Virus record (IMG/VR): IMGVR_UViG_3300045051_000667
Location: 1 to 37,925 of that record
Source: a virus
Strand: one strand, 5' to 3'
DNA: 37,925 nt
How positions within the stretch are numbered: position 1 is the stretch's first letter; the number at the start of each line of letters is the position of its first letter. Made by a program: the position numbers and the translations under genes. Below, one piece after another: positions 4,870 through 27,382 of this stretch. The notes beneath the pieces were generated by a model. The model worked only from the letters and a program-made list of their open reading frames with translations, did no database searches and was not told the origin of the DNA.

Positions 4870-6888
4870 ATGGTGAAGGTCGTCATCACGCATCCCGGCG
4901 ACGTCGTCGTCGACGAGTTCGAAGCCTGGGTCGAACAGCCGACGCTGCCGCCGCTGGCGGAGCCGCCGACGATCGGCCTGGTCGAGATCGCCACCTCGCA
5001 GCCGACCGATTCGGCCGCCGACATCCTGGCCAAGCTGCTGACGGTCGACGGCGCCGGATCCGGCCTCGACGCCGACTTCCTCGACGGCCAGCACGGCGCC
5101 TATTATTTGCCGGCGGCGAGCTACACGGCGGCCGACGTGCTGGCCAAGCTGATCACCGTCGATGGTTCCGGATCCGGGCTCGACGCCGATCTGCTCGATG
5201 GGCAGAACGGGTCTTACTACACCTCGCTCTCCAACCAGAGCGGCGTCATCAGCCCCAGCCAGCACGGCAACCAGGGCGGCGGCACCCTGCATGCGTTGGT
5301 GGATAACAGCGGCACCAACGGCTTCATGGCGTGGCCCGACAAGGCCAAGCTGGACGGCATCGAGCAAAACGCCACCGCCGACCAGACGCCAGCCGAGATA
5401 CTCACCGCCATCAAGACCGTCGACGGCTCGACCAGTGGCCTCGATGCCGATCTGCTCGACGGCCAGGACGGCGCCTATTACCTGGCGCTGGCCAACGGCA
5501 CCGGCAGCATCTCCGACACTCAGCACGGCAACCGTGGCGGCGGCGCGCTGCACGCCCTGGCGACGGCGGTGGTGGCCGGCTTCCTGCTCGACGCGCCGTC
5601 GGACGGCACCAGCTACGCCCGTCGCAACGCCGCATGGATCGCCACCAGCGCCTTCATCGACGCGCCGTCGGACGGCTCGTTCTACGGCCGGGTGAACGGC
5701 GCATGGTCGGCGCAGTACACCAAGGCCGCGCTCGACACGCTGCTCGCCGCCAAGGTCGCCGGCCCCGCCACCTCGACCGACAATGCGCTCGTCCGCTTCG
5801 ACCTCGCCACCGGCAAGCTGGTGCAGAACAGCGGCGCGATCCTCGACGACAGCAACAACCTGTCGGGCATTGGCGCCTTCACCACGACCGGCCAGATCAA
5901 CGCCGGCACCAACGTCATTGCGTCGGCCACCGTACAGGCCGGCAGCGGCATCTTCCAAGCGCTCAACACTGGCAACGCCGCCCCCGCCGTCCTGACCAAC
6001 GCCACTGCCGGCAACATCTTCTTGCGGCCCAACGGCTACGCCAGCGGGACCGGGCAACTCATTCTCGACACTTCCGGCAACTGTAGCGCCGCCGGCCAGG
6101 TTATCGCCGGCACCTCGTTGCAGGCAGGGAACGGCTTCTTCGTCGGCGTTGGCGCGAGTGTGTTTTTTGGCAACGCCTCTGGCGCGTCCACGCTCTACTT
6201 CCGCCCCAATGGCGTATCCGCCAGTGCTGCCGGCCAGATGTCCATCGACAGCAGCGGCAACATGTTGGTCGCTGGTCAGGTCAACCCGGCCAACGTCGTG
6301 GAGACCCAGTCGAACGCCACGATGATCCTCAGTGTCACGGCTGGTGCCACCGGGACCATCTATCTCAGGCCAGACGGCAGCGGCACCACGTCGATGCAAT
6401 CGACCTACAACGACAGCGGCAACTTCAACATCGCGGGGCCGAGCGGCGTGAAGAGCACCGGCACGACGTGGGCGAACCCCAGCGACGAGCGCATCAAGGA
6501 GGTCGTCGGCGACTACGAGGTCGGGCTCGATGCGATCCTCGCACTTCAGGTGCGGCGGTTCACCTACAAGGGCAACGAGACGCCGACGCTCGACGACGAG
6601 AACGATCCGGCGTTCGCTTTCGCCATGCGGGCGCGGACCAAGGAGAACGCGCCCTACCACGACAGCCCGCACTACAAGTTGGCAGTCGATGGCACCGAGG
6701 TCGCCGGCCTGGTCGCGCAGGAGGCCGAGAAGGTCATGCCCAGCCTGGTGACGCAGCACAGGATGCTGATCGACGGCGTCGAGGTCACCGACTTCCGTAT
6801 CCTCGATGCCGGCGACATCACCTGGGCGCTGGTCAATGCCGTGAAGACGCTGGCGGCCCGCGTCGAGGCGCTGGAGGCCGGCGGATGA
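4870..6888 (+). CDS. Tail fibre/spike with C-terminal S74 autoprocessing chaperone domain
   Basis: 672 residues. Three repeats of GLDADLLDGQ[HND]G[AS]YY occur at about residues 65, 95 and 193, each after a VDG-S-GLDAD turn, a common shaft repeat in phage fibres; two DAPSDG[TS].Y modules follow at about 238-275, then a Gly/Asn/Thr-rich beta region to about 530. The C-terminus is a peptidase S74 intramolecular chaperone: SDERIKE with the candidate catalytic Ser at 538, then VGLDAILALQVRRFTYKG, GLVAQEAEKVMPSLV and a terminal coiled coil (VNAVKTLAARVEALEAG). In this family the domain trimerises the fibre and cuts itself off at the Ser. Likely main receptor-binding protein. Confidence 0.85.
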   Translation: MVKVVITHPGDVVVDEFEAWVEQPTLPPLAEPPTIGLVEIATSQPTDSAADILAKLLTVDGAGSGLDADFLDGQHGAYYLPAASYTAADVLAKLITVDGSGSGLDADLLDGQNGSYYTSLSNQSGVISPSQHGNQGGGTLHALVDNSGTNGFMAWPDKAKLDGIEQNATADQTPAEILTAIKTVDGSTSGLDADLLDGQDGAYYLALANGTGSISDTQHGNRGGGALHALATAVVAGFLLDAPSDGTSYARRNAAWIATSAFIDAPSDGSFYGRVNGAWSAQYTKAALDTLLAAKVAGPATSTDNALVRFDLATGKLVQNSGAILDDSNNLSGIGAFTTTGQINAGTNVIASATVQAGSGIFQALNTGNAAPAVLTNATAGNIFLRPNGYASGTGQLILDTSGNCSAAGQVIAGTSLQAGNGFFVGVGASVFFGNASGASTLYFRPNGVSASAAGQMSIDSSGNMLVAGQVNPANVVETQSNATMILSVTAGATGTIYLRPDGSGTTSMQSTYNDSGNFNIAGPSGVKSTGTTWANPSDERIKEVVGDYEVGLDAILALQVRRFTYKGNETPTLDDENDPAFAFAMRARTKENAPYHDSPHYKLAVDGTEVAGLVAQEAEKVMPSLVTQHRMLIDGVEVTDFRILDAGDITWALVNAVKTLAARVEALEAGG

Positions 6889-15651: not shown

Positions 15652-17838
15652 TTACCACTCCCAAAGTCCATACAGCTTGGCGACGTTTTTGCTGACGTTC
15701 GTGGGTTTTTCGCCCATCTCCTTGAAGATGCGCTGGGTCTCGTCTCGACACATGCGCGTCAGCATCACGGTGGTGGCATGGCGCGTGCCAAGCTTAATGC
15801 CTTCCAACTCAGCGGCGGCGTGGATGTCACCAACCGCCATAGGCTGGCCGTGCTTGCGCAGGATGTAAATGACGCTGTCGCGTCGTGTCATCTCAGCCGT
15901 GTTGCCACCGGCCTGCGGGCTGGGACCGTCGGCCCACTGCACGATGCACGTGGTGATCGGCGCGCCGCTCCGCTTCTTTCCGACTATCAATCCGGTCTTT
16001 AGCGCGAACTTGTGCCGGAACTGCCCCTCGTCGCGCGACTTGGTGACGTCGAACCAATTGTCGTGGATCTCGATCTCGGCGTCGGTGGCCGCGCGCAGCG
16101 CGCTCGAACCGCGGGCTCCGAGAGTCCGGTCCTTGCCGCTGTGGTGAACCCAGACGACGTTGGCCTTGAAGCCGTCGCGCAAGTGGTCGCCGTTGGCGAC
16201 CAGCTGGCTCATGTCCTGGGTAGAGTTCTCGTTGCCGCGCATGGTCCTGGCCAGCGTATCGATGACGATCATGCCGACGTCGACCTTGAGCGCCGCGATC
16301 TGCTTGCCCAGGGCGTCGACGTCCTCCGCCTTCGGATCGGACATCTCCGGGGTGGCCTTGACGACGTGGAAGTGGTCGCTGACGCCGTAGGTATCGGCCA
16401 GGGCCCGCAGCCGGCGGCGCACCGACCGCGGCGATTCGGCGGCGATGTAGACGACATGGCATTTCAGCGTCTTGCGGCCGCACCATTCCATGCCCATGGA
16501 CACGCGGTAGGCCAGGTCGAGCGTCACGAACGTCTTGCCGGCGCCGCTCTCGCCGTAGATGACGGTCACCGACTGGCGCCCCATCAGCCCCTCGACGAGC
16601 TCGTCGTCGAGATCGTCGTCGGTGGCCAGGAGCTCCGCCAGGGGGATCGGCCGGAACCGGTTGAACTTCGCCTGCGCCTTCTCGGCGGCCTGTTCGCGCT
16701 CTTTGGCCGCCAGCACCTCGTCGAAGTTGGCGGGATCCAGGAGGTTGATCGGATCCTTGGCGAACGCGTTGCTGATCGTGGTGCGCACGTAGCTGAACAG
16801 GCGGTTCTGGTCGTAGTGGGTGGTCTTCACCTTCTCGCCGTAGGCGCACAGGATCAGCGCCATGTCGCCTGGCGTGATGTGCAGATTGATCATGGTCATG
16901 CACAGCGCCATGTCTTTCGCTGAGGTGTCGTTGGGATCCGGCGGCCGCTTCGCGGCGGCGTAGAGGGCCTGGTTGGTGGTGACCAGCGCCCTGAGGCGCG
17001 CCGGCAGCTTGTCGGGCTTGGCCAGCACCTCGATCAGGTCGCCCTCTTGGATGTCGCCCAGGTCGACGCCGTGGCTGTCCTGTGGCGTCGGATCGGCGGG
17101 CCCGCCTTCCCGCAGGGCCAGGCTGCGGAGCTCCTCCAGCGTCGTCTTTGGCCCGCCGTCGAACCATACGTTGCCGAACGAGATCTCGCGCCCGGCCTTC
17201 CTTTTGGACGGCGTCGGCCAGTTCGTGGTGCCCGGCGTCCTGAACAGGTTCTTGATCGGGTGGGTGGCCGGGTCACCGCCCAGCGCCCTGGCGACGTCCT
17301 TGTAGAGGTTCTCGATCTCGATCGTGACGCGGTGGCGGTTGTTCGGCGTGATGAGGATCGGCTCGACGAGCTTGAAGATGACTTGCGCTCCGCCCCCTGT
17401 ATTGACAACGGCGAACGGCTGCACCGGGCCGTTGAGCAGGCCGTGTACAACCTGGCGGATGCGCATGCGCTCCTGGTCGATCGGCTTGTCCTTGTCAGGA
17501 TCCAGGTCGATGACGATGGCATTGATCTCGACGACGTCATCGCGAGCCGGGACACCGCGGGCACCGACGGGGCCGCTGACGAAATTGGGGATGTAGAAGA
17601 TGTTGTGCGGCTGCGTCTCGTTGAACCGCAAGAACGAGCGCAGCGCCTCTACTTCCTTGGCTTCGGTGATGTCGTAGGTGATCGCCCCGTGATAGCCGTT
17701 CACCGAGAAGGAGCACACGGTAACGCGGCCGTGTACCGCCATTTTGAGTAGGAAATTCGTTGCTAAATTTGCGTCACAAGCGGTCGCGTCGGGGTAACGG
17801 CTCTTGTAATCGCGGAATCCTGCTGTATTTTCAGCCAC
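15652..17838 (-). CDS. Primase-helicase fusion: AEP-like primase plus RecA-fold (RepA-type) helicase
   Basis: 728 residues from GTG 17838, chosen because AAAGGAGCAAGAC precedes it and the conserved region starts soon after. N-terminal archaeo-eukaryotic-type primase: INAIVIDLDPDKD (Asp111, Asp113), VVNTGGGAQVIFKL (about 145-157) and FRTPGTTNWPTPSKR (199-213). C-terminal RecA-like ATPase: Walker A YGESGAGKT (428-436), IAAESPRSVRRRLRAL, Walker B MIVIDTLAR (523-531), VVWVHHSGKD and GARGSSALRAATD (575-587), the order of AAA_25/RepA helicases. A short winged-helix-like tail ends the protein (ILRKHGQPMAVGDIHAAAEL). Unwinds and primes DNA for the family A polymerase. The stop codon lies in GGTAACGC. 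Confidence 0.9.
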   Translation of the reverse strand: MAENTAGFRDYKSRYPDATACDANLATNFLLKMAVHGRVTVCSFSVNGYHGAITYDITEAKEVEALRSFLRFNETQPHNIFYIPNFVSGPVGARGVPARDDVVEINAIVIDLDPDKDKPIDQERMRIRQVVHGLLNGPVQPFAVVNTGGGAQVIFKLVEPILITPNNRHRVTIEIENLYKDVARALGGDPATHPIKNLFRTPGTTNWPTPSKRKAGREISFGNVWFDGGPKTTLEELRSLALREGGPADPTPQDSHGVDLGDIQEGDLIEVLAKPDKLPARLRALVTTNQALYAAAKRPPDPNDTSAKDMALCMTMINLHITPGDMALILCAYGEKVKTTHYDQNRLFSYVRTTISNAFAKDPINLLDPANFDEVLAAKEREQAAEKAQAKFNRFRPIPLAELLATDDDLDDELVEGLMGRQSVTVIYGESGAGKTFVTLDLAYRVSMGMEWCGRKTLKCHVVYIAAESPRSVRRRLRALADTYGVSDHFHVVKATPEMSDPKAEDVDALGKQIAALKVDVGMIVIDTLARTMRGNENSTQDMSQLVANGDHLRDGFKANVVWVHHSGKDRTLGARGSSALRAATDAEIEIHDNWFDVTKSRDEGQFRHKFALKTGLIVGKKRSGAPITTCIVQWADGPSPQAGGNTAEMTRRDSVIYILRKHGQPMAVGDIHAAAELEGIKLGTRHATTVMLTRMCRDETQRIFKEMGEKPTNVSKNVAKLYGLWEW

Positions 17839-17905
17839 GTCTTGCTCCTTTGCTGGGTTGCGAGGCACGTCGAGCTCCTTCCGGCACGAGGGAGTGAGAA
17901 ACATG

Positions 17906-18152: not shown

Positions 18153-18465
18153 GACCACCTCCCAAGCGTTTAAACGCATCCTTGCCCTCCTCCGACTGCG
18201 CCCAGGCCGCAGCTTCCTCGTCGGTGGCATCGAACTCGCCGTCGATCAAGCGCATGCGCAAATGGTGGGCGGCCAAGCGCTCGCGCTCCGTCATGCCGGG
18301 CTCGCCGACGACGGCCGCCAGGATCTCGGCCAGCACCATCTGCGGCAGGGCATGCGGGCTGAAGAACTCGTTGAACTCGTTGGCTTCGGCGCGCTTGGCG
18401 AGCGCCTCGAACTTGGCGGCACGCAGCGCGTCGGCCAGCTTCTGCGACGTCGGCATCGTGGTCAT
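18130..18465 (-). CDS. Hypothetical small acidic helical protein
   Basis: 111 residues, ATG 18465 after AGGAGGGACGA and overlapping the XRE gene stop by ATGA. Ala/Glu-rich and almost entirely helical (SQKLADALRAAKFEALAKRA; MTERERLAAHHLRMRLIDGE; ATDEEAAAWAQSEEGKDAF). No catalytic motif. GCGTTTAAACGC at 18168-18175 codes Phe-Lys-Arg near its end, 16 bp before the next start. Confidence 0.6.
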   Translation of the reverse strand: MTTMPTSQKLADALRAAKFEALAKRAEANEFNEFFSPHALPQMVLAEILAAVVGEPGMTERERLAAHHLRMRLIDGEFDATDEEAAAWAQSEEGKDAFKRLGGGRAPVDNS

Positions 18466-18725
18466 TCGTCCCTCCTGGCGGCGGTGATCACCCAGCCAAG
18501 GGCGCCGAGTAGGCGCACGATCGTCTCCAGCCGGGGAAAGCGTGTCTGGCCGGAAGCGATGTTGCTGACCGTGCTGCTGGCCACCGCCGCCTTCTGGGCG
18601 ATGGCCGTATAGGTCGTCTTGGCGCGCAGGAGCTCCTCCTGCACCAGCTTCGTGGCGGCCATGCTGTCGGTCAGCGTGACCAGCGAGCGCGTGCCGGGAA
18701 GCAGCCTTGTGACGGTGGCGCTCAT
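18462..18725 (-). CDS. Cro/XRE-like helix-turn-helix regulator
   Basis: 87 residues; start overlaps the preceding stop by ATGA. The HTH spans about 40-75: YTAIAQKAAVASSTVSNIAS then GQTRFPRLETIVRLLGALGW, the XRE/Cro pattern with recognition helix ASSTVSNIASG. Small size and early position suggest a repressor or anti-repressor acting on phage promoters; the GTAACGC palindromes and GCGTTTAAACGC sites are candidate targets, which the sequence alone cannot settle. Confidence 0.75.
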   Translation of the reverse strand: MSATVTRLLPGTRSLVTLTDSMAATKLVQEELLRAKTTYTAIAQKAAVASSTVSNIASGQTRFPRLETIVRLLGALGWVITAARRDE

Positions 18726-19795: not shown

Positions 19796-20434
19796 TCATG
19801 TTGCCTGGCAGACGAAGGGACTGTCGCAGCAATTGCACGTTGCGTCGAAGTCGGGCCGCGCGACGCGCACCTTCATCGGCGGCACACAGCCGCACTCCCA
19901 CAGCTTGAGCCGCGATCCGGATCCGGCGCCGCGCGACTTGCCGCCCTTGGTGCCGAAGCCGGCGCCGCACGGCTTGATGTGCATGGCGGCGCCGTTGGGG
20001 CGCGCGACCAGCGGCAGCGGCGCGCCGTCCACCGGCCTGGGCAGGCGCACGATGGCGTTGCGGATGTCGGGTGCAAAATGCGCCCAGGTGTAGTTGGTGC
20101 CGGCCGCCTTCACGCAGCGCAGCCCCAGGCGGTCGCAGGCCTCGTGCCATTCCTTGCGGTGGCCGGCCTCCCAGCCGGCGAGCACGTGGCCGAGCTCGTG
20201 CAGCGTGGTGCCGGCCAGCTGCACGATCGATTCCTGGTGCAGCGCATTGATGGCGACGAAGGGCACCGCCTCGCCCGGCTTGGCGTTCCACCTATCGAAA
20301 TATGTGATGCCGCGGGTGCCGTCGGGCGCATTGCCGTAGCAAAGCTTGACGGCGCGGACCTTGTCCTGGTCGGCGCTGCTCAGCTTGGCGGCGGCAACGT
20401 CGGCGATTGCGGTAACGAATTCTTCGTGGGTCAT
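19796..20434 (-). CDS. SprT-like zinc metalloprotein (HELGH)
   Basis: 212 residues, ATG 20434 after CTGGAGTTTTGTCCC. The zinc-protease motif TTLHELGHVLAGWEAGHRKE (about 77-96) has HExxH as HELGH, with a later EWHEACDRLGL giving the third ligand region typical of SprT-like domains. A C-terminal zinc ribbon has ECGC, then DATCNCCDSPFVC. SprT/Spartan-type domains cleave or bind DNA-associated proteins; phage copies are common but poorly studied. Sits downstream of an operator-like region with a GTTTAAAC site and a GTAACGC palindrome. May act on host DNA-bound proteins or DNA-protein crosslinks (inference). Confidence 0.8.
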   Translation of the reverse strand: MTHEEFVTAIADVAAAKLSSADQDKVRAVKLCYGNAPDGTRGITYFDRWNAKPGEAVPFVAINALHQESIVQLAGTTLHELGHVLAGWEAGHRKEWHEACDRLGLRCVKAAGTNYTWAHFAPDIRNAIVRLPRPVDGAPLPLVARPNGAAMHIKPCGAGFGTKGGKSRGAGSGSRLKLWECGCVPPMKVRVARPDFDATCNCCDSPFVCQAT

Positions 20435-20460
20435 GGGACAAAACTCCAGTTGTCCGTTGC

Positions 20461-20494
20461 GTTTAAACGATCAGGTAACGCATTATGCGTTACC
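20461..20494 (-). promoter_or_regulatory. Operator-like region before the SprT-like gene: GTTTAAAC site plus GTAACGC palindrome
   Basis: GCGTTTAAACGA (core 20461-20468) lies 27 bp before the SprT-like start, followed 5 bp away by a 21-bp perfect inverted repeat (20474-20494): arms GGTAACGCAT and ATGCGTTACC around a single T. The 69-bp gap between two minus-strand genes holds nothing else. Both dispersed motif families meet here, which argues for regulatory use. Confidence 0.55.
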
Positions 20495-20503
20495 CGTCAA
20501 CGG

Positions 20504-20779
20504 CTATTTGCGGTCGGCCAGCCATTTCCTGCACTGCGCGCGGAGTTGGTCGGCGAAACTTTCGCTGTCCTTCATGCGGCCAAGGACGTAGCCGCAATGC
20601 GTGGCGTTCCAGGTGTCGATCTGGCGCTCCCACCCACGCGTGTTGTACTCGGTCAGCCAACGCAGGCCGGCGAACAGGACGAAGGGACTGAGCAGGAGCA
20701 CGATCGCCGAAGCGAGCAGCGATTTGCGGATCAGCTTGCCGGCAGCTGCGGCAAACTCGCGGATCAATGCGTCGCTCAT
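20504..20779 (-). CDS. Single-span small membrane protein
   Basis: 91 residues, ATG 20779 overlapping the previous stop by ATGA. MSDALIREFAAAAGKLIRKS precedes one hydrophobic helix (LLASAIVLLLSPFVLFAGL, about 21-39); the remaining 50 residues are soluble with two Cys (THCGYVLG, RAQCRKWLADRK). Topology N-in/C-out is likely from the positive residues before the helix. Early-region membrane proteins of this size sometimes block superinfection or act as inhibitors, but nothing here proves it. Confidence 0.6.
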   Translation of the reverse strand: MSDALIREFAAAAGKLIRKSLLASAIVLLLSPFVLFAGLRWLTEYNTRGWERQIDTWNATHCGYVLGRMKDSESFADQLRAQCRKWLADRK

Positions 20780-21012
20780 TGCTCGATCCCCGTCGGTGCG
20801 GCGCGGCGCGCCTTGGCGTGGTCCATCAGGCGGATGATCTGCCGATCGACGTTGGCAGCGTTCACGCCCAGGGCGGCGAGCGCATCGACGACGCCCTGGC
20901 CGTGATAGACCACGCCGTAGTCGTCGGCGTTGGAATTGGCCATGAGCATGTCGGCGTAGTGCCGCATGGCCGCGCGCACCTTGTCGGTTTGCGTTGGTGT
21001 CAGTTTCAGCAT
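20776..21012 (-). CDS. Small hypothetical protein
   Basis: 78 residues. ATG 21012 follows AACCTGGAGA-CCACA, so the longer frame to 21084 is rejected. Helical: LTPTQTDKVRAAMRHYADML, a polar turn (NADDYGVVYHGQG), then VVDALAALGVNAANVDRQII. Coupled by ATGA to the membrane-protein gene after it. No motif recognised. Confidence 0.55.
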   Translation of the reverse strand: MLKLTPTQTDKVRAAMRHYADMLMANSNADDYGVVYHGQGVVDALAALGVNAANVDRQIIRLMDHAKARRAAPTGIEQ

Positions 21013-21080
21013 TGTGGTCTCCAGGTTGTCGGCTGAATTGCCGCCACAGGCGCCGGCGTGCCGGCGCCTCAAGCAGGAAT

Positions 21081-21272
21081 TCAAAGATCCGGGTCGTAGT
21101 CGCCCCGCCCGTCCCGGCGGTCGAACGCATCGCCGATGCGCGCGTCGATCACCGCATTGAGGAGCTCGATGAGCTTGGCCGCCTTCTCGGCGGCGCGGGG
21201 AACGCCGATGATGCTCGCTTCGATGAAGTCCGCCAGGGCGTCTTCGGCGTTGCCGATTTCACGGTAGCTCAT
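21081..21272 (-). CDS. Small acidic hypothetical protein
   Basis: 63 residues from ATG 21272, overlapping the upstream stop by ATGA; no start-associated element here, consistent with translational coupling. EIGNAEDALADFIEASIIG, then AEKAAKLIELLNAVIDARIG, then an Asp/Arg tail (FDRRDGRGDYDPDL). Probably a helical hairpin. Function unknown. Confidence 0.55.
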   Translation of the reverse strand: MSYREIGNAEDALADFIEASIIGVPRAAEKAAKLIELLNAVIDARIGDAFDRRDGRGDYDPDL

Positions 21273-21658
21273 TTGTGTGCCTCGACGAAGGCGGTGTTGA
21301 TCGCCGGCACGCTGTCGAGCATGCGGCGCACTTCCCTGGTGCCCTTGCGCTCGCAGGCGGCATCGAGCCAACGCTGCGCCTCGCGGCGCCAATCGCGGAT
21401 CACCTCGCGGTAGGCCGCGGGATGGCGCACGTAGCGCTCCAACATGAGCGGACCGAGGTCGGTCAGGCGATAGCCCGATGCGAAGTCCGCCAGGATGCGC
21501 GGCCGCGTGTCGCCGGGCTCGCATTGCAGCACGAACGGCCGCATGTCGCCGGTCTCCAGGCCGAGCTCCAGCTGCACGCGATAGCCCTCGCGTTGTTCCA
21601 GCTTTGGTTCATCGGCGCCCTTGGCGAAAGTCGGCACCAGGAATTTACACCTACGCAT
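21269..21658 (-). CDS. Hypothetical protein of the small early block
   Basis: 129 residues; ATG 21658 after AACCTGGAGA-GAAAA. MRRCKFLVPTFAKGADEPKL, a strand YRVQLELGLETGDMRPFVLQ, then helices including WRREAQRWLDAACERKGTRE. Resembles a small alpha/beta protein with an exposed Arg-rich helix. No family recognised. Confidence 0.55.
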   Translation of the reverse strand: MRRCKFLVPTFAKGADEPKLEQREGYRVQLELGLETGDMRPFVLQCEPGDTRPRILADFASGYRLTDLGPLMLERYVRHPAAYREVIRDWRREAQRWLDAACERKGTREVRRMLDSVPAINTAFVEAHK

Positions 21659-21705
21659 TTTTCTCTCCAGGTTTTTGGTCTCATCAGCGCCGGCCTCACC
21701 GGCGG

Positions 21706-21722
21706 ACCGGGCAAAGCCCGGT
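21706..21722 (-). terminator. Short intercistronic hairpin
   Basis: Perfect 7-bp arms ACCGGGC/GCCCGGT around AAA, 7 bp after the stop of the 82-residue gene and before the next start; a second weaker GC stem (GCCGGCCTCACCGGC) lies beside it. Together they fill most of the 70-bp gap. Possible partial terminator or mRNA processing site. Confidence 0.4.
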
Positions 21723-21728
21723 TTCGAC

Positions 21729-21977
21729 CTATGCAACGCCCCATGAAGTGTCGCGGGCGCGGCGCACGCGGCCGATGTCATCGACATAAAGCGGCGTGCA
21801 ATGCGGCCCGTCGGCGAGCACCCAGCGGTGCGCATATTCCCAGCCGACGCGCGTGAATTCCTGGTTCGCGTCGGCCACCGCGACAGCGGCCGCCAATTCG
21901 GCCTCGCTCATCTCGTGCAGCATCGACCAGCACAAGCGGCCGTCGGCGTTGCGGTTCCTATCTTCGATAACGTACAT
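21729..21977 (-). CDS. Small hypothetical protein
   Basis: 82 residues, ATG 21977 after AACCTGGAGA-GACTGAA. MYVIEDRNRNADGRLCWSML, HEMSEAELAAAVAVADANQE and YAHRWVLADGPHCTPLYVDD: a compact alpha/beta protein with two Cys. GCGTTAC lies 25 bp upstream (22002-22008), beside the start-associated element. Function unknown. Confidence 0.55.
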   Translation of the reverse strand: MYVIEDRNRNADGRLCWSMLHEMSEAELAAAVAVADANQEFTRVGWEYAHRWVLADGPHCTPLYVDDIGRVRRARDTSWGVA

Positions 21978-22012
21978 TTCAGTCTCTCCAGGTTAGGATT
22001 GCGTTACACCTA

Positions 22013-22594
22013 TCACGCCAGGCATGCAACGTGATAGGCGCTGACCGCGTCGGCGGTCGCCAATGTGCGGTTGGCGCGGTTGCCGGCGACATATTCGCAC
22101 CATGAATTCCACCAATGGCGGGAACCGCCGGTTCGCGCGCACAGCGCGACATAGGAAGCGATTTTCCGCCGCCGCGTTTCGGGCTTCACGGATTTGGCCA
22201 ATTTCAGAGCGGACTCGGCCATGCCGAGGCGCTTCAAATTGTGGCCGTCCAGGCATGCGACTTCGTGGCCGCATATCTGAGCGATGAACGCGGCTTTCAC
22301 GATGCCAAGCCCGGGAATGGATGTGAGCACATCCACCGCCGCGGCCGCATCGGGCGCTTCGGCCACCGCCAAGCGCAACTCAGACGCGTGCGCCAAGGCG
22401 TAACGGTAGCCTTCGCGCTTGGAACCGAACAACCATTTGCTGTCGGCGCCGTTCAAGCGAATATCGGCCATTTGGCCGCCGACAGATCGCAGCGGCTGGC
22501 GAATGGTGCATAGGACGAATGCGACAACGTCGCAAAAGCCCTGGTCCGATGCGAGCGCATGCGCTCGCATCAATGGCATGTCGCGGTCGTACAT
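22013..22594 (-). CDS. HhH-GPD-like DNA-repair-fold protein
   Basis: 193 residues, ATG 22594 after AGGAGCGGGTC; the first gene leftward from the control region. Residues 90-120 read LTSIPGLGIVKAAFIAQICG then HEVACLDGHNL. This matches the helix-hairpin-helix plus catalytic-Asp layout of endonuclease III-type glycosylases (LPGVG-KTA ... VDTH): HhH at 93-98, candidate catalytic Asp116. The Lys (100) is one position later than in bifunctional glycosylases, so lyase activity is uncertain. No iron-sulphur cluster at the C-terminus. Could recognise modified or damaged bases, or be a structural DNA-binding relative. Confidence 0.65.
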   Translation of the reverse strand: MYDRDMPLMRAHALASDQGFCDVVAFVLCTIRQPLRSVGGQMADIRLNGADSKWLFGSKREGYRYALAHASELRLAVAEAPDAAAAVDVLTSIPGLGIVKAAFIAQICGHEVACLDGHNLKRLGMAESALKLAKSVKPETRRRKIASYVALCARTGGSRHWWNSWCEYVAGNRANRTLATADAVSAYHVACLA

Positions 22595-22664
22595 GACCCG
22601 CTCCTGTTTCGTTCATTTCCTATGCCCGCAAGATAGGTGAAAGCGTTACACTAAACCAGTACCA

Positions 22665-22689
22665 TTTTTGCATGGCAGGCATGCAAAAA
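22665..22689. repeat. Inverted repeat TTTTTGCATG / CATGCAAAAA
   Basis: Perfect 10-bp arms (22665-22674 and 22680-22689) around GCAGG, ending directly at a GCGTTAC half-site. AT-rich for this genome; candidate melting element or binding site in the leftward promoter area. Confidence 0.55.
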
Positions 22690-22704
22690 GCGTTACCTAA
22701 TTTC

Positions 22705-22932
22705 CCAGGTCACATCCCAGGTCACATGAGGTAGGCCTGTGACCTGGGATGTGACCTGGAAGGACGCAAAGCCGTGTGACCTGTGTGACCTGGGATGTGA
22801 CCTGGATGTGACCTGGATGTGACCTGGGATGTGACCAAAAACCAACGTCTCCAGGTCACACCATAGCAGGTGTGTAGGATACACCTGCTGTGACCTGGGA
22901 AGGGCGCCACAGCGCATTTGCGCTGTGACCTG
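22705..22932. repeat. Iteron-like array of TGTGACCTGG
   Basis: Plus-orientation copies start at 22738, 22750, 22784, 22796, 22807, 22818 and 22889, with TGTGACCTGT at 22775 and 22924 and a partial TGTGACC at 22830; inverted copies lie at 22705, 22717 and 22851. Neighbouring copies are mostly 11-12 bp apart, about one helical turn, so bound proteins would face one side. The two inverted copies at 22705-22726 and the pair at 22738-22759 form perfect 22-bp arms around an 11-base centre, able to extrude a cruciform. Secondary inverted repeats lie inside it (22865-22889, arms AGCAGGTGT; 22908-22927, arms CACAGCGCA). Such arrays are typical of replication origins. Confidence 0.8.
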
Positions 22933-22953
22933 TAATGTTGCTGCCGGTGGCCG

Positions 22954-22991
22954 AAAAGCCCTTCGGCGCCGACGGCGCCGAAAGGCCTTTT
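22954..22991. terminator. Large GC hairpin with flanking A/T runs
   Basis: Arms about 17-18 bp with one bulge, AAAAGCCCTTCGGCGCC and GGCGCCGAAAGGCCTTTT, loop GAC. A-run on the left and T-run on the right give it terminator form in both directions. It separates the iteron array from the GTAACGC palindromes, perhaps insulating the two halves. Confidence 0.55.
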
Positions 22992-23066
22992 GGAGCTCTT
23001 GCCGGTGGCATGCCGCCAGGCATGCCGCCGGGCGCCCTATTCGCCAGGCCTATACAGTAAAAGCCA

Positions 23067-23127
23067 AGTATAGGTAACGCGTTACCTATACTGAGCCTAT
23101 ACTGTAACGCTTTAGTAAAGCGTTACA
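23067..23127. promoter_or_regulatory. Twin GTAACGC operator palindromes
   Basis: First: a perfect 26-bp palindrome (23067-23092) with half AGTATAGGTAACG. Second: a 25-bp inverted repeat (23103-23127) with arms TGTAACGCTTTA and TAAAGCGTTACA around one G. Centres are about 35 bp apart. CCTATAC recurs at 23049, 23085 and 23096, and inverted at 23068. The half-site GCGTTAC recurs at 23231 and in other intergenic regions. The form is that of repressor operators. Confidence 0.7.
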
Positions 23128-23220
23128 CGTTTTGGTTGCGACCGGCCGGCGGGGGCATCGTCGAACCCGGGTACAACCCGGGGTTGCGCGGGCCCCCTGG
23201 ATTTTGCGCAGCCTTAGAGT

Positions 23221-23237
23221 TATAATGAAAAGCGTTA
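23221..23237 (+). promoter_or_regulatory. Rightward promoter -10 with overlapping operator half-site
   Basis: TATAAT at 23221-23226, a perfect -10 in a GC-rich genome, is followed 4 bp later by GCGTTAC (23231-23237) where transcription should start. No good -35 is visible 17 bp upstream (region TGGATTTTGCGC), so an activator may be needed. The first gene starts at 23258 behind AAGGAG (23246-23251). Confidence 0.6.
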
Positions 23238-23257
23238 CTCGTCCCAAGGAGCAGGCT

Positions 23258-23449
23258 ATGCCCAACCTGTCGTCGTCCGCCATCGCCAGCGTCGACTACG
23301 AGAACGGCTACCTCACCGTCGTCTTCCGCGACGGCACCAGCTACATCTACAAGAACGTGCCGCAGTCGGTGTATGAGGAGCTCGTCGTCGCCGGATCCGC
23401 GGGCGCCTACTTCAACCGCAACATCCGCGACAGTTACGACACGACCTGA
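23258..23449 (+). CDS. KTSC-domain protein
   Basis: 63 residues from ATG 23258 (AAGGAG, 6-base spacing); upstream in-frame starts lie within the control region and before the promoter, so are rejected. SSSAIASVDYENGYLTVVFR, DGTSYIYKNVPQSVYEEL and SAGAYFNRNIRDSY match the small KTSC domain (SS-I-SV-Y----L-V-F-DG--Y-Y--VP). Found in phages and near nucleic-acid enzymes; function unknown. First gene of the rightward early operon. Confidence 0.8.
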   Translation: MPNLSSSAIASVDYENGYLTVVFRDGTSYIYKNVPQSVYEELVVAGSAGAYFNRNIRDSYDTT

Positions 23450-23461
23450 GGGAGATGATCG

Positions 23462-23659
23462 ATGCCGAAGTTCATCGTGGTGAGCCAGAAGTCGGGGGGC
23501 TCGTTCAAGCCGCTGGCGGTGGCCGTGGACGAGATCATCGCCATCGGGCTCGACAACGCCGGCGAGACGACGGTGACGCTGCCGGCGCCGGTGGGCGTGG
23601 TCGTCGTCAAGGAGACGGCCGACGTGATCAACAGGAAGATACGCGGCAAGGCGGCATGA
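23462..23659 (+). CDS. Small hypothetical protein
   Basis: 65 residues, GAGGGAGATGATCG before ATG 23462. MPKFIVVSQKSGGSFKPLAV, AVDEIIAIGLDNAGETTVTL, APVGVVVVKETADVINRKIR: strand-rich with a short C-terminal helix, a small beta barrel or FlbD-like fold by pattern. Coupled by ATGA to the next gene. Function unknown. Confidence 0.6.
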   Translation: MPKFIVVSQKSGGSFKPLAVAVDEIIAIGLDNAGETTVTLPAPVGVVVVKETADVINRKIRGKAA

Positions 23660-23868
23660 TCATCGACCTCAAGGACGAACTCGGCGAGCTTGAGGGCCTG
23701 ATCGGCCGCAAGCTGACGCGCGACGAGACGATGAAGATCGGGCTGCTGTTCGTGCAGCTGATCGACCGCGGCATGAGCATGTATCGCAAGCGGGCGGTGG
23801 CCACCGTGCAGAAGATGGCGGTCAACCCTTTGGCCATCGTGCGCGAGCTCAACCGGCCGCTGCGATGA
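23656..23868 (+). CDS. Small helical hypothetical protein
   Basis: 70 residues from ATG 23656 (ATGA overlap). MIIDLKDELGELEGLIGRKL then DETMKIGLLFVQLIDRGMSM and MAVNPLAIVRELNRPLR. Amphipathic helices; the middle one is fairly hydrophobic but too polar for a confident membrane span. Coupled to its neighbours on both sides. Confidence 0.55.
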   Translation: MIIDLKDELGELEGLIGRKLTRDETMKIGLLFVQLIDRGMSMYRKRAVATVQKMAVNPLAIVRELNRPLR

Positions 23869-24161
23869 GCGCACGGCCGACCGAGACGATGCTGCGCTGG
23901 CTGAACACCGTGCGCCAGTTTCCCGGCACGCGGCGGAGCCGCAGCCGCACCGGCTACGTCTGCATGCAGCGCGGCTGGACCGAATGGAACTACCGGGTGC
24001 TGGGCGCCGAGCGGGCCGCCACTGCGGCCGAGGCGCGCGAAGTGTTCGGCGATCGGTGGTGGGGCCACGTCGAGATCGACGGCGAGCGGATCACGGACGA
24101 GGGACTCCGGGTATTGCGGGAGGCGGGCGACTGGCAGCCGGTGTTCAGGATCGCGGTCTGA
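23865..24161 (+). CDS. Small hypothetical protein, Arg/Trp-rich
   Basis: 98 residues, ATGA-coupled to the gene before. TMLRWLNTVRQFPGTRRSRS, TGYVCMQRGWTEWNYRVLGA, REVFGDRWWGHVEIDGERIT. An Arg-rich N-terminus followed by an alpha/beta fold; nucleic-acid contact is possible. It converges with the minus-strand zinc-ribbon gene, overlapping by 17 bp. Last gene of the rightward early operon. Confidence 0.55.
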   Translation: MSARPTETMLRWLNTVRQFPGTRRSRSRTGYVCMQRGWTEWNYRVLGAERAATAAEAREVFGDRWWGHVEIDGERITDEGLRVLREAGDWQPVFRIAV

Positions 24162-24339
24162 CCGGCTGCCCGGGAGACGGCGGCTTGATCTGCGGCGGCA
24201 CTCGCTGCATGGCGACGTCCTCGCCGCCGATCGAGCACAGCGGGCACCAGAACTGCGGCTTGCCCGACAGCGTCGGCGGGAACAGACAGGTGTAGCGGCA
24301 CTTCGGGCAGCGCCAGCGGTCGTGCGATCGGCGGATCAC
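24145..24339 (-). CDS. Small zinc-ribbon protein
   Basis: 64 residues from GTG 24339, GTGA-coupled to the preceding gene. RWRCPKCRYTCLFPPTLSG then FWCPLCSIGGEDVAM: two C-x2-C knuckles about 20 residues apart make a zinc ribbon; the last 20 residues are Pro-rich. Similar small zinc proteins occur beside phage regulators. Last gene of a five-gene minus-strand operon. Confidence 0.6.
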   Translation of the reverse strand: MIRRSHDRWRCPKCRYTCLFPPTLSGKPQFWCPLCSIGGEDVAMQRVPPQIKPPSPGQPVRPRS

Positions 24340-24560
24340 CGCGTCACCAGTTCGAACGGGATGTCGAGGATGGTGCCGGCGTACATCGGCGGTGGCACCG
24401 GTTCGGGGGTGCGGCGCAGCAAATTGAGGTGGTTGCCGATCTCCAGCGCCGCCTGGTGGCGGGCGCCTTCGTCGTCGAAGCGCAGCGTCAGGAAAACCGA
24501 CGACGGTTTGATGTGCATGCCGCGCAGTTCCCGGCGCAGCGCGCGGAAGACATCGATCAT
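24336..24560 (-). CDS. Small hypothetical protein
   Basis: 74 residues from ATG 24560 (ATGA overlap), preferred to a longer Arg-rich frame. MIDVFRALRRELRGMHIKPS, SVFLTLRFDDEGARHQAALE, RTPEPVPPPMYAGTILDIPF: a helix, a strand, a helix and a Pro-rich stretch ending in a strand. No family recognised. Confidence 0.55.
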   Translation of the reverse strand: MIDVFRALRRELRGMHIKPSSVFLTLRFDDEGARHQAALEIGNHLNLLRRTPEPVPPPMYAGTILDIPFELVTR

Positions 24561-24799
24561 CGGTTTCTCAAGGCGGCGTCGGCGATGTCGAGGGCGGCCA
24601 CGTCGGCGCTGCAATCCGTGATGTCCCCCACCGCGCGGACGAAAGCCTGAAGCCGCCCGCTCGTTAGTTGCAGCGCCTCGCGTAGCCGCTTGTTCTCGGC
24701 TTCGGCCCTGTCGGCGCGATCATAGGCGGCATCGGCGATCAGCTGATTGTCGTGCAGGCGAGCCCTGGTCTCGGCCAACTCGGCTTCGATGTCGGTCAT
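24557..24799 (-). CDS. Coiled-coil hypothetical protein
   Basis: 80 residues, ATGA overlap on both sides. DIEAELAETRARLHDNQLIA then DRADRAEAENKRLREALQLT is a long heptad coiled coil, followed by a short helix (SADVAALDIADAALRNR). Probably a dimer; possibly a partner of the adjacent XRE regulator. Confidence 0.55.
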   Translation of the reverse strand: MTDIEAELAETRARLHDNQLIADAAYDRADRAEAENKRLREALQLTSGRLQAFVRAVGDITDCSADVAALDIADAALRNR

Positions 24800-25032
24800 G
24801 CCGCCTGGCTCCAGTCGCGCGTCAGCCGGCCGATCTGGCTCTTGGGCAGACGCCCGCCGGTGCGCTTGAGCTCCAGCATGGCGTCCTCGATGTGCTCCGG
24901 GATCGGGCGCCGGTTGTGCGGACGCTCGAACTCGGAGATACGGATCTTGTGGGCGTAGCCGAGAAGGTCGGCGAGCTCCTGCTGGGTCAGCAGGAGACCC
25001 TGGCGTATGGCTTTGAATTCACTGGGCGTCAT
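24796..25032 (-). CDS. XRE-family helix-turn-helix regulator
   Basis: 78 residues. MTPSEFKAIRQGLLLTQQEL and ADLLGYAHKIRISEFERPHN form an XRE DNA-binding domain with recognition helix GYAHKIRISEFE, followed by IPEHIEDAMLELKRT and a basic tail. Second gene of a minus-strand operon whose divergent promoter region (25295-25374) has two GTAACG half-sites, so autoregulation through those sites is a reasonable guess. ATG 25032 has only a weak ribosome site. Confidence 0.75.
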   Translation of the reverse strand: MTPSEFKAIRQGLLLTQQELADLLGYAHKIRISEFERPHNRRPIPEHIEDAMLELKRTGGRLPKSQIGRLTRDWSQAA

Positions 25033-25039
25033 GGTTCTG

Positions 25040-25294
25040 CTACACTGCTTTTCGGCGCTTGAGTTCGAATGATTCGAAGGGCTGCTTTCCCCCCTTGAGC
25101 CATTGACGAACCATCTGGGTTACGGCGAAGTGGGTGACCTCCGGAGGGGTCGTAGCACACAGCTGGGTGTCGAGGGTGTCACCGACTTTGTGCATCACGA
25201 TGATGGCGAGGCCAATCGCGGTGCGGTCCGTATCGAGGTTGCGTATGTCCTCCCACGCCATCTCGACGACGGCCGCGATTTCATCACGTGTCAT
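25040..25294 (-). CDS. Small hypothetical protein
   Basis: 84 residues, ATG 25294 after CTGGAGGGCAACC, the strongest ribosome site of this operon. MTRDEIAAVVEMAWEDIRNL, AIGLAIIVMHKVGDTLDTQL and FAVTQMVRQWLKGGKQPFES: mostly helical with a basic C-terminus. First gene leftward of the divergent promoter. Function unknown. Confidence 0.55.
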   Translation of the reverse strand: MTRDEIAAVVEMAWEDIRNLDTDRTAIGLAIIVMHKVGDTLDTQLCATTPPEVTHFAVTQMVRQWLKGGKQPFESFELKRRKAV

Positions 25295-25374
25295 GGTTGC
25301 CCTCCAGGGTCACCCAAAATATAAGTAACGCAAAAGGCGAGTGCCAGCACTTAAATACGTTACAGGGGTCGGTC
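25295..25374. promoter_or_regulatory. Divergent promoter/operator region
   Basis: 80 bp between divergent genes, AT-rich for this genome. GTAACGC (25325-25331) and CGTTAC (25361-25366) face each other about 35 bp apart, the same centre spacing as the twin palindromes of the main control region. TATAAG (25320-25325) and TTAAAT (25351-25356) are -10-like. Probably controls both the XRE operon and the rightward late/accessory genes. Confidence 0.5.
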
Positions 25375-26013
25375 ATGGCCGCTTCCGCCGCCGAGTACAA
25401 GAAATTGATCGAACGCGAGATGGCCAGGAAGGCCGGACCGCAGACGTCGAGGGACGATGCCGTCAGACGCGCCAACATCGCCGCCGGCTTCGGTAACTCC
25501 ACCGCGGAGCGCTTCCTTGGCGGGCCGTTTAAGCTGGCACCAGAGAGTGGCGGCGGTGGCGGCGGCAAGAGCCGCGGCGGCGGTGGCGGCAAAGCTGCTG
25601 GCGGACCGCAAACGAGCTCCGTGACGCCGTCCTCGCCGGCGCGCGACCCATCGCTGATGTGGGAGAGTCCGCCGCCGGCGGCCTCGCCGGCGCGCGACCC
25701 CTCGCTGATGTGGGAGAGCCCGCCGCCCAATCCCTCGCCGGCGCGCGACCCCTCGCTGATGTGGCAGGGCGGCACGGCGCAGAACGGCGTCGACCCCTTC
25801 CTGCATATCGGGCCCGGTCTCCATCCGCAGGACGCCGGCGTTCCGGTGCCGACGCCGCGGCCGTCGCCGTTCACGAACGACCTGGTGCGGCCGGGCTTCT
25901 CCGACTTCGTGCGCGGCCAGCACGTCTTCCCGAACTTCCACCCGGCGTCGATCTTCCAGGCATCGCCGCCCGATCCGAACGAGCCCTGGTGGCGGGCGAT
26001 GCTGAGGGGATGA
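25375..26013 (+). CDS. Proline-rich protein with 17-residue tandem repeats
   Basis: 212 residues from ATG 25375; an earlier in-frame ATG (25288) lies inside the divergent gene's start. The N-terminal helix MAASAAEYKKLIEREMARKA leads to a Gly/Lys-rich linker (GGGGGGKSRGGGGGKAAGG), then three tandem units SPARDPSLMWESPPP (51-bp DNA period), the last degenerate. The C-terminus has LVRPGFSDFVRGQHVFPNFH and ends in PNEPWWRAMLRG. Linker-plus-repeat design suggests a multivalent binding or virion-associated protein. Family unknown. Confidence 0.6.
   Translation: MAASAAEYKKLIEREMARKAGPQTSRDDAVRRANIAAGFGNSTAERFLGGPFKLAPESGGGGGGKSRGGGGGKAAGGPQTSSVTPSSPARDPSLMWESPPPAASPARDPSLMWESPPPNPSPARDPSLMWQGGTAQNGVDPFLHIGPGLHPQDAGVPVPTPRPSPFTNDLVRPGFSDFVRGQHVFPNFHPASIFQASPPDPNEPWWRAMLRG
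25633..25770 (+). repeat. 51-bp tandem repeat, about 2.7 copies
   Basis: Units begin TCGCCGGCGCGCGACCC at 25633, 25684 and 25735, differing at a few bases, and code the SPARDPSLMW repeat. Exact 51-bp spacing keeps the frame, so copy number could change without breaking the gene. Confidence 0.85.
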
Positions 26014-26016
26014 CCG

Positions 26017-26310
26017 ATGAAGAGTAGATCGCCGTTCAAGCTGCACGGCAAGGAAGAGGTCGGCGAGAGCGGACCGGATCCGGACGACGTCGCTGCCCGA
26101 AAGGGCAAGGGCGCCCCTTTCTACACGGCCAAGGGGTCCGACCAGAACGCCGCGATGAAGGGCGACTTCGCGCAGCAAGTGCCGCGCTCGACGGCGCCGG
26201 CGGCCAAGCCGAAGCGGCCGAAGGTCAAGAGCGGCGGCGCCTACAAGCTCTCCGCGACCCGGCCGAAGACCGTCGCGCCGGCGGTGCCGCGCGTGAAGAT
26301 GAATGCCTGA
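26017..26310 (+). CDS. Small basic, disordered protein with SPFKL motif
   Basis: 97 residues. MKSRSPFKLHGKEEVGESGP then KGSDQNAAMKGDFAQQVPRS and KPKRPKVKSGGAYKLSATRP: Lys/Pro/Ala-rich and probably disordered. SPFKL and QNAAM also occur in the 59-residue protein at 27824-28003, so the two may be related or share a partner. Function unknown; DNA or head-assembly binding is possible from charge. Confidence 0.6.
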   Translation: MKSRSPFKLHGKEEVGESGPDPDDVAARKGKGAPFYTAKGSDQNAAMKGDFAQQVPRSTAPAAKPKRPKVKSGGAYKLSATRPKTVAPAVPRVKMNA

Positions 26311-26318
26311 GATCGGGC

Positions 26319-26477
26319 ATGGACTGGCCGGTGCCGCTTGCTTCCTTGCGCTTGCCTACATCCTTTGGCGGAGAGCCGGACAACGGCGACAAGCTCGCCC
26401 CGTCGCGCGGATTCCTTATCGGCCTGTCGGTGGCAGTGCTGCTCTGGGCAGGGATCCTGCTGTGGGTGTTGCTCTAA
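26319..26477 (+). CDS. Single-span small membrane protein
   Basis: 52 residues: MDWPVPLASLRLPTSFGGEP, a polar linker NGDKLAPSRG, then one helix FLIGLSVAVLLWAGILLWVLL to the stop. The SRGFLIGL...LLWA pattern recurs in small phage inner-membrane proteins. This frame is preferred over the overlapping 26303-26575 frame, whose N-terminal half looks like a shadow. Unknown role. Confidence 0.65.
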   Translation: MDWPVPLASLRLPTSFGGEPDNGDKLAPSRGFLIGLSVAVLLWAGILLWVLL

Positions 26478-26575
26478 CCCCCGAAGAGCTCTGTGTGCAT
26501 GCGTCGTGGACGTGGGAAGAGTGGGGCCGCCGCTGCCCCGACTGCGGTGTCGTGATGGTGGATCCCGGTGACTGA
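26462..26575 (+). CDS. Very small zinc-binding protein
   Basis: 37 residues from GTG 26462, inside the end of the membrane-protein gene (16-bp overlap). GVALTPEELCVHASWTWEEW then GRRCPDCGVVMVDPGD: C-x-H plus C-x2-C, a short zinc knuckle common in tiny phage proteins. The start is uncertain because no ribosome site is clear. Confidence 0.5.
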   Translation: MGVALTPEELCVHASWTWEEWGRRCPDCGVVMVDPGD

Positions 26576-26909
26576 CCTCGCCGACTACACGCCTGGGCCC
26601 GCGCTGTTGGCGGCGCGGCAAAAGCTGCTTGAGGGGATCGCGGCGACGTGGAAGCGTCCGATCACGCGCTCGTCGCCGAAAGCCGCGCCGCCATCCCGTC
26701 ACGAGCGCGTGATCGACCTCGACGAGGCCGCGGCCGCGGTCGACCGCTATACGGCCGAGTGGGCCAAGGCGCGGCAGACGAAGGTCGAGATCGTCGAATA
26801 TTCCGCGCGCACCAAGACATCGCCGCCGAACAATTACTGGGTGCCAGAGCACCAGGCGCGCGGGCGCCTGATCGCCGCCATGGCGGTGCTGGAGGCGTTG
26901 CTGGCTTGA
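26568..26909 (+). CDS. Hypothetical protein
   Basis: 113 residues from GTG 26568, overlapping the previous stop. TDLADYTPGPALLAARQKLL, ERVIDLDEAAAAVDRYTAEW and QARGRLIAAMAVLEALLA: helical N- and C-termini with a variable basic middle (KRPITRSSPKAAPPSRHERV). No motif. Just before the Gp49-like gene. Confidence 0.5.
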   Translation: MTDLADYTPGPALLAARQKLLEGIAATWKRPITRSSPKAAPPSRHERVIDLDEAAAAVDRYTAEWAKARQTKVEIVEYSARTKTSPPNNYWVPEHQARGRLIAAMAVLEALLA

Positions 26910-26989
26910 CGATCGTCACGCGCTGGACCGAGATCTGGCATGGCGAGGGCCGGGAACGCGTCAACATCCTCGCCGACAGGGAGAAGACC

Positions 26990-27382
26990 ATGGGCGACAG
27001 CCTCAGAGAAACCGACAAGGCCGCTGCGGCGGTGGCCGTCAACCCGAAGAACCGGGTGACGTTGGACCAGATGCTCGCGCGCATCGAGCACGAGGAGTAT
27101 TGGCACCCCTCGCACACGCCGCACATGACGATCTGCGTGCTGACGATCGACAACGGCTTCGTCGTGGTCGGCTCGTCGGCGCCGGCCGACCCGGCCAACT
27201 ACGACGAAAACCTGGGCCGGCAGTTCTCCAAGGAGGATTGCATCCGCCAGATGTGGAGGCTTGAGGGCTACCGGCTGCGTGACAAGCTGTGGATGATCGA
27301 ACGTGAGCAAGACACCGACCCGGAAGCTGCGCAAGTGGACACCGGAGGACCGCAAGAAGGGGCAGGAGACCCGTCGAGCTAA
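26990..27382 (+). CDS. Gp49-like phage protein (phage_gp49_66 family)
   Basis: 130 residues, ATG 26990 after AGGGAGAAGACC. The family core is clear: RVTLDQMLARIEHEEYW, then MTICVLTIDNGFVVVGSSAP, NYDENLGRQFSKEDCIRQMW and RLEGYRLRDKL. The family is widespread in tailed phages, usually near packaging or head genes; function unknown. The gene overlaps the small terminase by 80 bp, unusually long here; the C-terminal Asp/Glu/Gly tail after about residue 105 lies in the overlap. Confidence 0.8.
   Translation: MGDSLRETDKAAAAVAVNPKNRVTLDQMLARIEHEEYWHPSHTPHMTICVLTIDNGFVVVGSSAPADPANYDENLGRQFSKEDCIRQMWRLEGYRLRDKLWMIEREQDTDPEAAQVDTGGPQEGAGDPSS

Follow-up and report, generated by a model that had tools for sequence, protein, structure and literature searches.

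The initiator helicases SaPI Rep and SCCmec Cch2 recognize, through their C-terminal domain, short iterons lying directly downstream of their own gene (PMC7581432). P4 alpha is a single protein in which primase and helicase are joined to a C-terminal winged helix for binding the repeats of its origin, and at the oriV of RSF1010 these roles are distributed, with iterons for RepC, a RepA helicase, and a RepB' primase acting at the ssiA and ssiB hairpins (PMC4234260). In Vibrio PLE, origin swaps have shown that only the DNA-binding domain of the RepA initiator and the origin co-vary and that they are swapped as a module; the selection probably comes from an origin-cutting, origin-directed nuclease (Odn) (PMC8263062). 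Lambda O is a phage-encoded initiator reading iterons beside an AT-rich region, and extra copies of the origin block the phage (PMC4488673).

The window analyzed here, the 37,925-nucleotide stretch of IMG/VR virus record IMGVR_UViG_3300045051_000667, encodes a large terminase subunit, a portal and a major head protein, together with a replication block of PolA, SSB, a DUF2800/PD-(D/E)XK exonuclease, an SNF2 helicase, RusA and a primase-helicase. It also carries, at 22705–22933, an intergenic array of iterons on both strands, with the unit CCAGGTCACA or, on the opposite strand, TGTGACCTGG. Judged from sequence comparison, this array is very probably the DNA replication origin of the phage, a conclusion that is well supported. 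The fuller reading that we prefer, with a probability of about 0.8, is that the array is the origin and that the C-terminal winged helix of the primase-helicase binds to the iterons and loads the enzyme, replication then beginning at a palindrome.

The array contains twelve full or near-full copies and one partial copy, arranged as two rightward copies, eight leftward copies, one rightward copy, the palindrome and two further leftward copies. The plus strand has seven exact copies of TGTGACCTGG (starting at 22738, 22750, 22784, 22796, 22807, 22818 and 22889), two with one mismatch (22775 and 22924) and a partial TGTGACC (22830), and the minus strand has three exact copies (22705, 22717 and 22851); this confirms the nine full or near-full copies plus a partial in one orientation, and three in the other, that had been counted in a sequence-only reading of this DNA. 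The main run of eight iterons, including the partial copy (22738–22836, plus strand), proceeds in steps of 9–12 bp with one step of 25 bp, and the start-to-start steps inside the runs (9, 11, 11, 12, 12 and 12 bp) bear out the helical phasing proposed in that reading. Copies of TGTGACCTGG with 0 or 1 mismatch are absent from the rest of the 37,925-base window. The array has 12 occurrences of CAGGTCAC, and for comparison there were no clusters of at least five copies of any 8-mer per 350 bp in 60 first-order Markov sequences generated from the window; a repeat cluster such as this is not expected by chance. The 300-bp stretch of lowest GC content in the window starts at 22601 and overlaps the array, a modest dip (0.517 vs 0.650 overall). 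The GC skew of the window gives no origin signal and is uninformative on the origin because it follows gene direction, and an Rfam search at the array locus gave no match.

The first two iterons (22705–22726, minus strand) are the left arm of a perfect 22-bp inverted pair, the right arm of which is at 22738–22759, with 11 nt between them. These arms had been put forward as able to form a cruciform and are present as described, but the relatives instead conserve a 25-bp palindrome at 22865–22889 (AGCAGGTGT-GTAGGAT-ACACCTGCT, with a stem of 9 and a loop of 7; shuffle p 0.005 in the window). The palindrome sits between two iterons that face it, one on the left (22851–22860, minus strand), in an arrangement shared with the relatives, and one on the right (22889–22898, plus strand); an outer iteron with one mismatch (TGTGACCTGT) follows at 22924–22933 on the plus strand. 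The palindrome at the corresponding place in the relatives consists of other letters and is still paired (ATATACCCTAAAGGGTATAT, ATACGAGTATACTCGTAT, TTGTGTCTATGGGACACAA, TAGGGGGTATACCTACCCCCTA and others). With close and distant phages pooled, a strict test put the stems between inverted iterons above those of shuffled gaps in 19 of the 34 arrays; it missed visible palindromes in three relatives (L048, L056 and L059), chiefly because of a degenerate or more distant right-hand iteron. A palindrome between inverted sites also looks like a recombination core, and the array could be imagined as the site of a protein other than an initiator, acting in recombination, packaging or as a protelomerase at a hairpin. 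This is very improbable, as no integrase or protelomerase match was found among the window proteins scanned, the terminase genes are 4–5 kb away, and the unit tracks the primase-helicase in distant phages (see below).

Close relatives of the window were taken to be IMG/VR loci with a related terminase (76–84% identical). In eight distinct ones the sequence covers the whole gap from the HhH-like gene to the KTSC and XRE genes, and that of a ninth (L049) starts within its palindrome. All eight have a comparable repeat array in this gap, each with a different unit; in the orientation of CCAGGTCACA these are GAGAGCACAA (L050/L018), GCCCGACA (L048/L017), CAAGGACA (L053), GAGCGTGACA (L055), TTGAGCGGACA (L056), GTGCGCGACA (L059/L011), TGACGGACA (L097/L010) and AGCGGCGCA (L100). 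The order is nevertheless kept, with one or two rightward copies, a leftward run, one to four rightward copies, the palindrome and at least one leftward copy. Conservation of the array in relatives, which had been suggested as a check on the origin proposal, thus extends to the gene gap, the number of copies (about 9–14), the phasing (10–13 bp) and the orientation pattern, but not to the unit itself.

A DNA search of the annotated phage collection with positions 20001–27000 gave no match, and the bacterial and archaeal genome collection yielded no terminase relative. A search of IMG/VR for the window's own unit yielded three contigs (L007–L009), which were set aside as having short or differently built repeats and as not being relatives of the locus; one of them, the 62.7-kb viral contig L009, has a dense, unrelated field of CCTGGGAA and GTGACCTGG units at 900–1400. 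Long GC-rich tandem repeats adjoin the iteron array in L059 (about 6190–6800, CGAGGGCG) and L097 (about 560–680, GGTCGGAC), and a TTGATTTCATTGA-like element is found within the arrays of L050, L048, L056, L059 and L097 but was not seen in the window.

The gap also contains invariant, operator-like GTAACG sites, which flank the array between 22644 and 23238 (at 22644, 22691, 23074, 23080, 23104, 23121 and 23233). In all ten loci compared (the window, L050, L048, L053, L055, L056, L059, L097, L100 and L049) their density is 2.7–10.5 per kb in the gap vs 0.2–1.0 per kb elsewhere, and they are unchanged from phage to phage, forming a regulatory layer separate from the iterons. They are likely read by an XRE-like regulator (24796–25032, minus strand) with a recognition helix conserved in all relatives, which is unlikely to read the variable iterons. 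The list of binders suggested earlier is narrowed accordingly: this XRE protein was rejected as the iteron binder, its recognition helix being invariant while the iterons differ, and so was a second XRE protein (18462–18725), which has no homologue among the relatives examined.

Given the intergenic position next to the XRE gene, and GTAACG sites on its flanks, the array could alternatively be an operator array, at which a cluster of phage repressors or activators controls transcription of the flanking operons. We regard this as improbable, since the gap contains other conserved sites that probably serve the conserved regulator, and the arrays of distant phages come after the primase-helicase gene and not in a promoter region; the absence of a promoter-like match in 22400–23400, a weak check, points the same way. 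The setting between divergent operons on which the sequence-only reading drew is itself not conserved, as the KTSC gene (23258–23449) is on the plus strand here and on the minus strand in relatives; the difference between the window and six relatives may reflect a local inversion. On the left, the conserved gap is marked by a 193-aa HhH-like gene (22013–22594, minus strand) without a Pfam or PHROG match, the product of which stays about 70% conserved even where the phage has different replication genes. We also note at 19796–20434 a conserved protein with a HELGH (HExxH) motif, SprT-like by eye and with no Pfam match.

The proposed initiator is the primase-helicase (15652–17874, minus strand, with an approximate start set by alignment with relatives). 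It consists of N-terminal AEP-like motifs recognized by eye, a RecA/RepA-type helicase (AAA_25, E 2e-35) and a C-terminal domain. The C-terminal 110 residues (15655–15984, minus strand) are predicted to form a winged-helix domain, the proposed iteron reader; the model of this domain resembles winged helices (Fur, Zur, Z-alpha, Rok, ORC1 and LexA), a weak fold match with Z of 5 or less and a pLDDT of 63. In a low-confidence AlphaFold model of the full-length protein (pLDDT 55, 5 sequences) only the RecA/DnaB-like helicase is clear.

A profile search with the primase-helicase gave 80 loci, and 49 gene ends were examined for arrays, defined as at least five copies of an 8-mer within −100 to +300 of the stop codon. 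Arrays are present at the 3' end of the gene in 21 of these 49 distant loci, compared with 13 of 1784 positions drawn at random from these contigs (0.7%). They follow the primase-helicase gene, several overlapping its last codons, and their units vary from group to group. Cultured phages with such arrays include Roseobacter phages CRP-823 and CRP-811 (both ACTACAAA), CRP-831 (GTATAAA) and CRP-406 (GGCTGGAA), Idiomarinaceae phage 1N2-2 (CGGTACA), Alteromonas phages PB15 and XX1924 (GGTTCA) and Salicola phage CGphi29 (GGGGACA), and palindromes again lie between facing copies (e.g. AACCCTTTAGGGTT and ACACACCTATATAGGTGT). No origin is marked in any of the cultured-phage feature tables examined. 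There is no array after the helicase gene in Escherichia phage K1ind1, Caulobacter phage KcrB, Mycobacterium phage Hedgerow and two Manatee Spring phages.

The partition sites parC and tubC also have short direct repeats with helical phasing, and an array with similar repeats of 10–12 bp might be a partition or centromere site of this kind. Such a role is scarcely credible here, as a Pfam scan of 28 window proteins, a subset of the ORFs, gave no member of the ParA, ParM, ParR or TubZ families, and the arrays associate with the primase-helicase rather than a partition NTPase.

By sequence comparison, the part of the protein that changes with the unit in the distant relatives is the C-terminal domain of the primase-helicase. 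In one group (L159–L181) the body of the protein is about 89–100% identical, and the last 80–100 residues or so fall into types that match the unit. For example, a body segment is 100% identical between L170 and L171, with C-termini of 41% identity and the units CATCCGAA and TGTACCGA; L159 and L164 have 99% identity in the body, 42% at the C-terminus and a changed unit; and L172, with a one-letter unit change, has an intermediate C-terminus (about 60–64%). CRP-823 and CRP-831 are a separate case, with 99% identity in the body, 70% at the C-terminus and the units ACTACAAA and GTATAAA. Unit and C-terminus are correlated given the body in a partial Mantel test (r 0.85, 0 of 5000 permutations, 13 sequences), and also in a wider set (r 0.36, 2 of 2000 permutations, 28 sequences), although the permutation counts overstate independence because the sequences within a group are related; the 13-sequence group is phylogenetically non-independent and reflects perhaps three or four swaps. 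The end of the gene and the array are physically linked in the distant phages and could be moved together by a single recombination event; in L171 they are separated by a gene of 278 codons, yet the match between unit and C-terminus holds.

Roughly 4.8 kb separate the array from the primase-helicase gene in the window clade, and because of this distance the window protein is proposed as the iteron reader by analogy with the distant phages; we infer that it behaves as theirs appear to. Among the five full proteins of this clade that are paired with arrays, the closest C-termini (81%) have the most similar units (0.53), an observation from too few proteins for a statistical test. The same distance would suit an origin with iterons read by a different phage protein, a separate RepC-like initiator, with the primase-helicase recruited secondarily, and there is precedent in RSF1010, where the iterons are read by the distinct protein RepC (PMC4234260). 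We consider this unlikely. Among the window genes examined, several small ones of which were compared across less than the whole clade, no other is both present in relatives and varying with the unit; the recognition helix of the XRE regulator is invariant, the second XRE protein was not found in relatives, and in the distant phages it is the C-terminal domain of the primase-helicase that tracks the unit.

With the primase-helicase as the preferred initiator, and building on the array, its conserved locus and layout, the palindrome and the co-variation seen in related phages, we infer a sequence of physical binding, melting and ring loading. The C-terminal winged-helix domain would bind the iterons cooperatively, the 11–12 bp phasing bringing adjacent subunits to the same side of the helix, and the facing iterons at 22851 and 22889 would position assemblies on both sides of the palindrome. 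The palindrome adjoins the most AT-rich stretch of the genome, and the duplex may open there, allowing helicase rings to load and the fused primase to begin synthesis. The unit would then be a private recognition code, replaceable if the DNA-reading domain is replaced too.

These phages may represent a widespread and as yet unannotated class of phage origin, in which a RepA-type primase-helicase with a C-terminal winged helix acts at iterons accompanied by an iteron-palindrome-inverted iteron element, and the reading domain and its code are exchanged as a cassette; we lean slightly towards this generalization. If the class is real, fast change of the code would exclude cross-initiation, decoys or the origin-cutting enzymes of rivals, and we offer the avoidance of rivals as a suggestion for its cause; the block of lambda by extra origin copies provides a reason for private codes. 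The arrays probably mark where replication starts in a large number of environmental and cultured phages with origins unannotated in the records examined, and they suggest a search rule, namely to look for phased repeats, two of which face each other across a palindrome, either after the primase-helicase gene or between operons. The natural domain swaps are ready-made pairs of protein and site for studying DNA recognition by winged helices and the reasons for the fast diversification of origins.

Among the nearest known systems, SaPI Rep and Cch2 share with this one an initiator helicase with a C-terminal domain as the iteron reader (both roles proposed here) and, in the distant relatives, a downstream array. 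They differ in serving satellites or islands, with another kind of helicase to which no primase is fused; the window's array is set about 4.8 kb apart from the gene, and here the iteron-palindrome-inverted iteron dyad is the regular feature. P4 alpha likewise combines primase, helicase and a C-terminal winged helix (here predicted) in one protein, but, comparing by description, it has a TOPRIM primase, whereas here there are AEP-like primase motifs and a RepA/RecA-like helicase (AAA_25). The window system may be said to work like the SaPI Rep and P4 alpha type without being a member of it, because its array is not directly downstream of the gene. RSF1010 has a RepA-type helicase, iterons and nearby hairpins in common with the window, but uses three separate proteins and iterons of 20 bp, rather than a fused primase-helicase and a 10-bp unit; no Pfam RepC match was found among the window proteins scanned. 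As in Vibrio PLE, the DNA-binding domain of the (here proposed) initiator co-varies with the origin, although the PLE initiator is of the RepA_N family, without predicted helicase or primase activity, and has semi-palindromic iterons of about 30 bp. Lambda is similar in having iterons beside an AT-rich stretch and a phage-encoded initiator (again, proposed here), but its four 19-bp iterons are inside gene O, the binding domain is N-terminal and the helicase is recruited, whereas here the array is intergenic and the helicase is fused. Searches of the open-licence literature found no account that connects iterons with phage primase-helicases of the RepA type, and the paper describing CRP-823 mentions neither iterons nor an origin. 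Features known separately – module exchange, C-terminal iteron reading, a fused primase-helicase, and iterons with hairpins – come together here in a family of helicases, and in phages, for which no such combination turned up in that literature.
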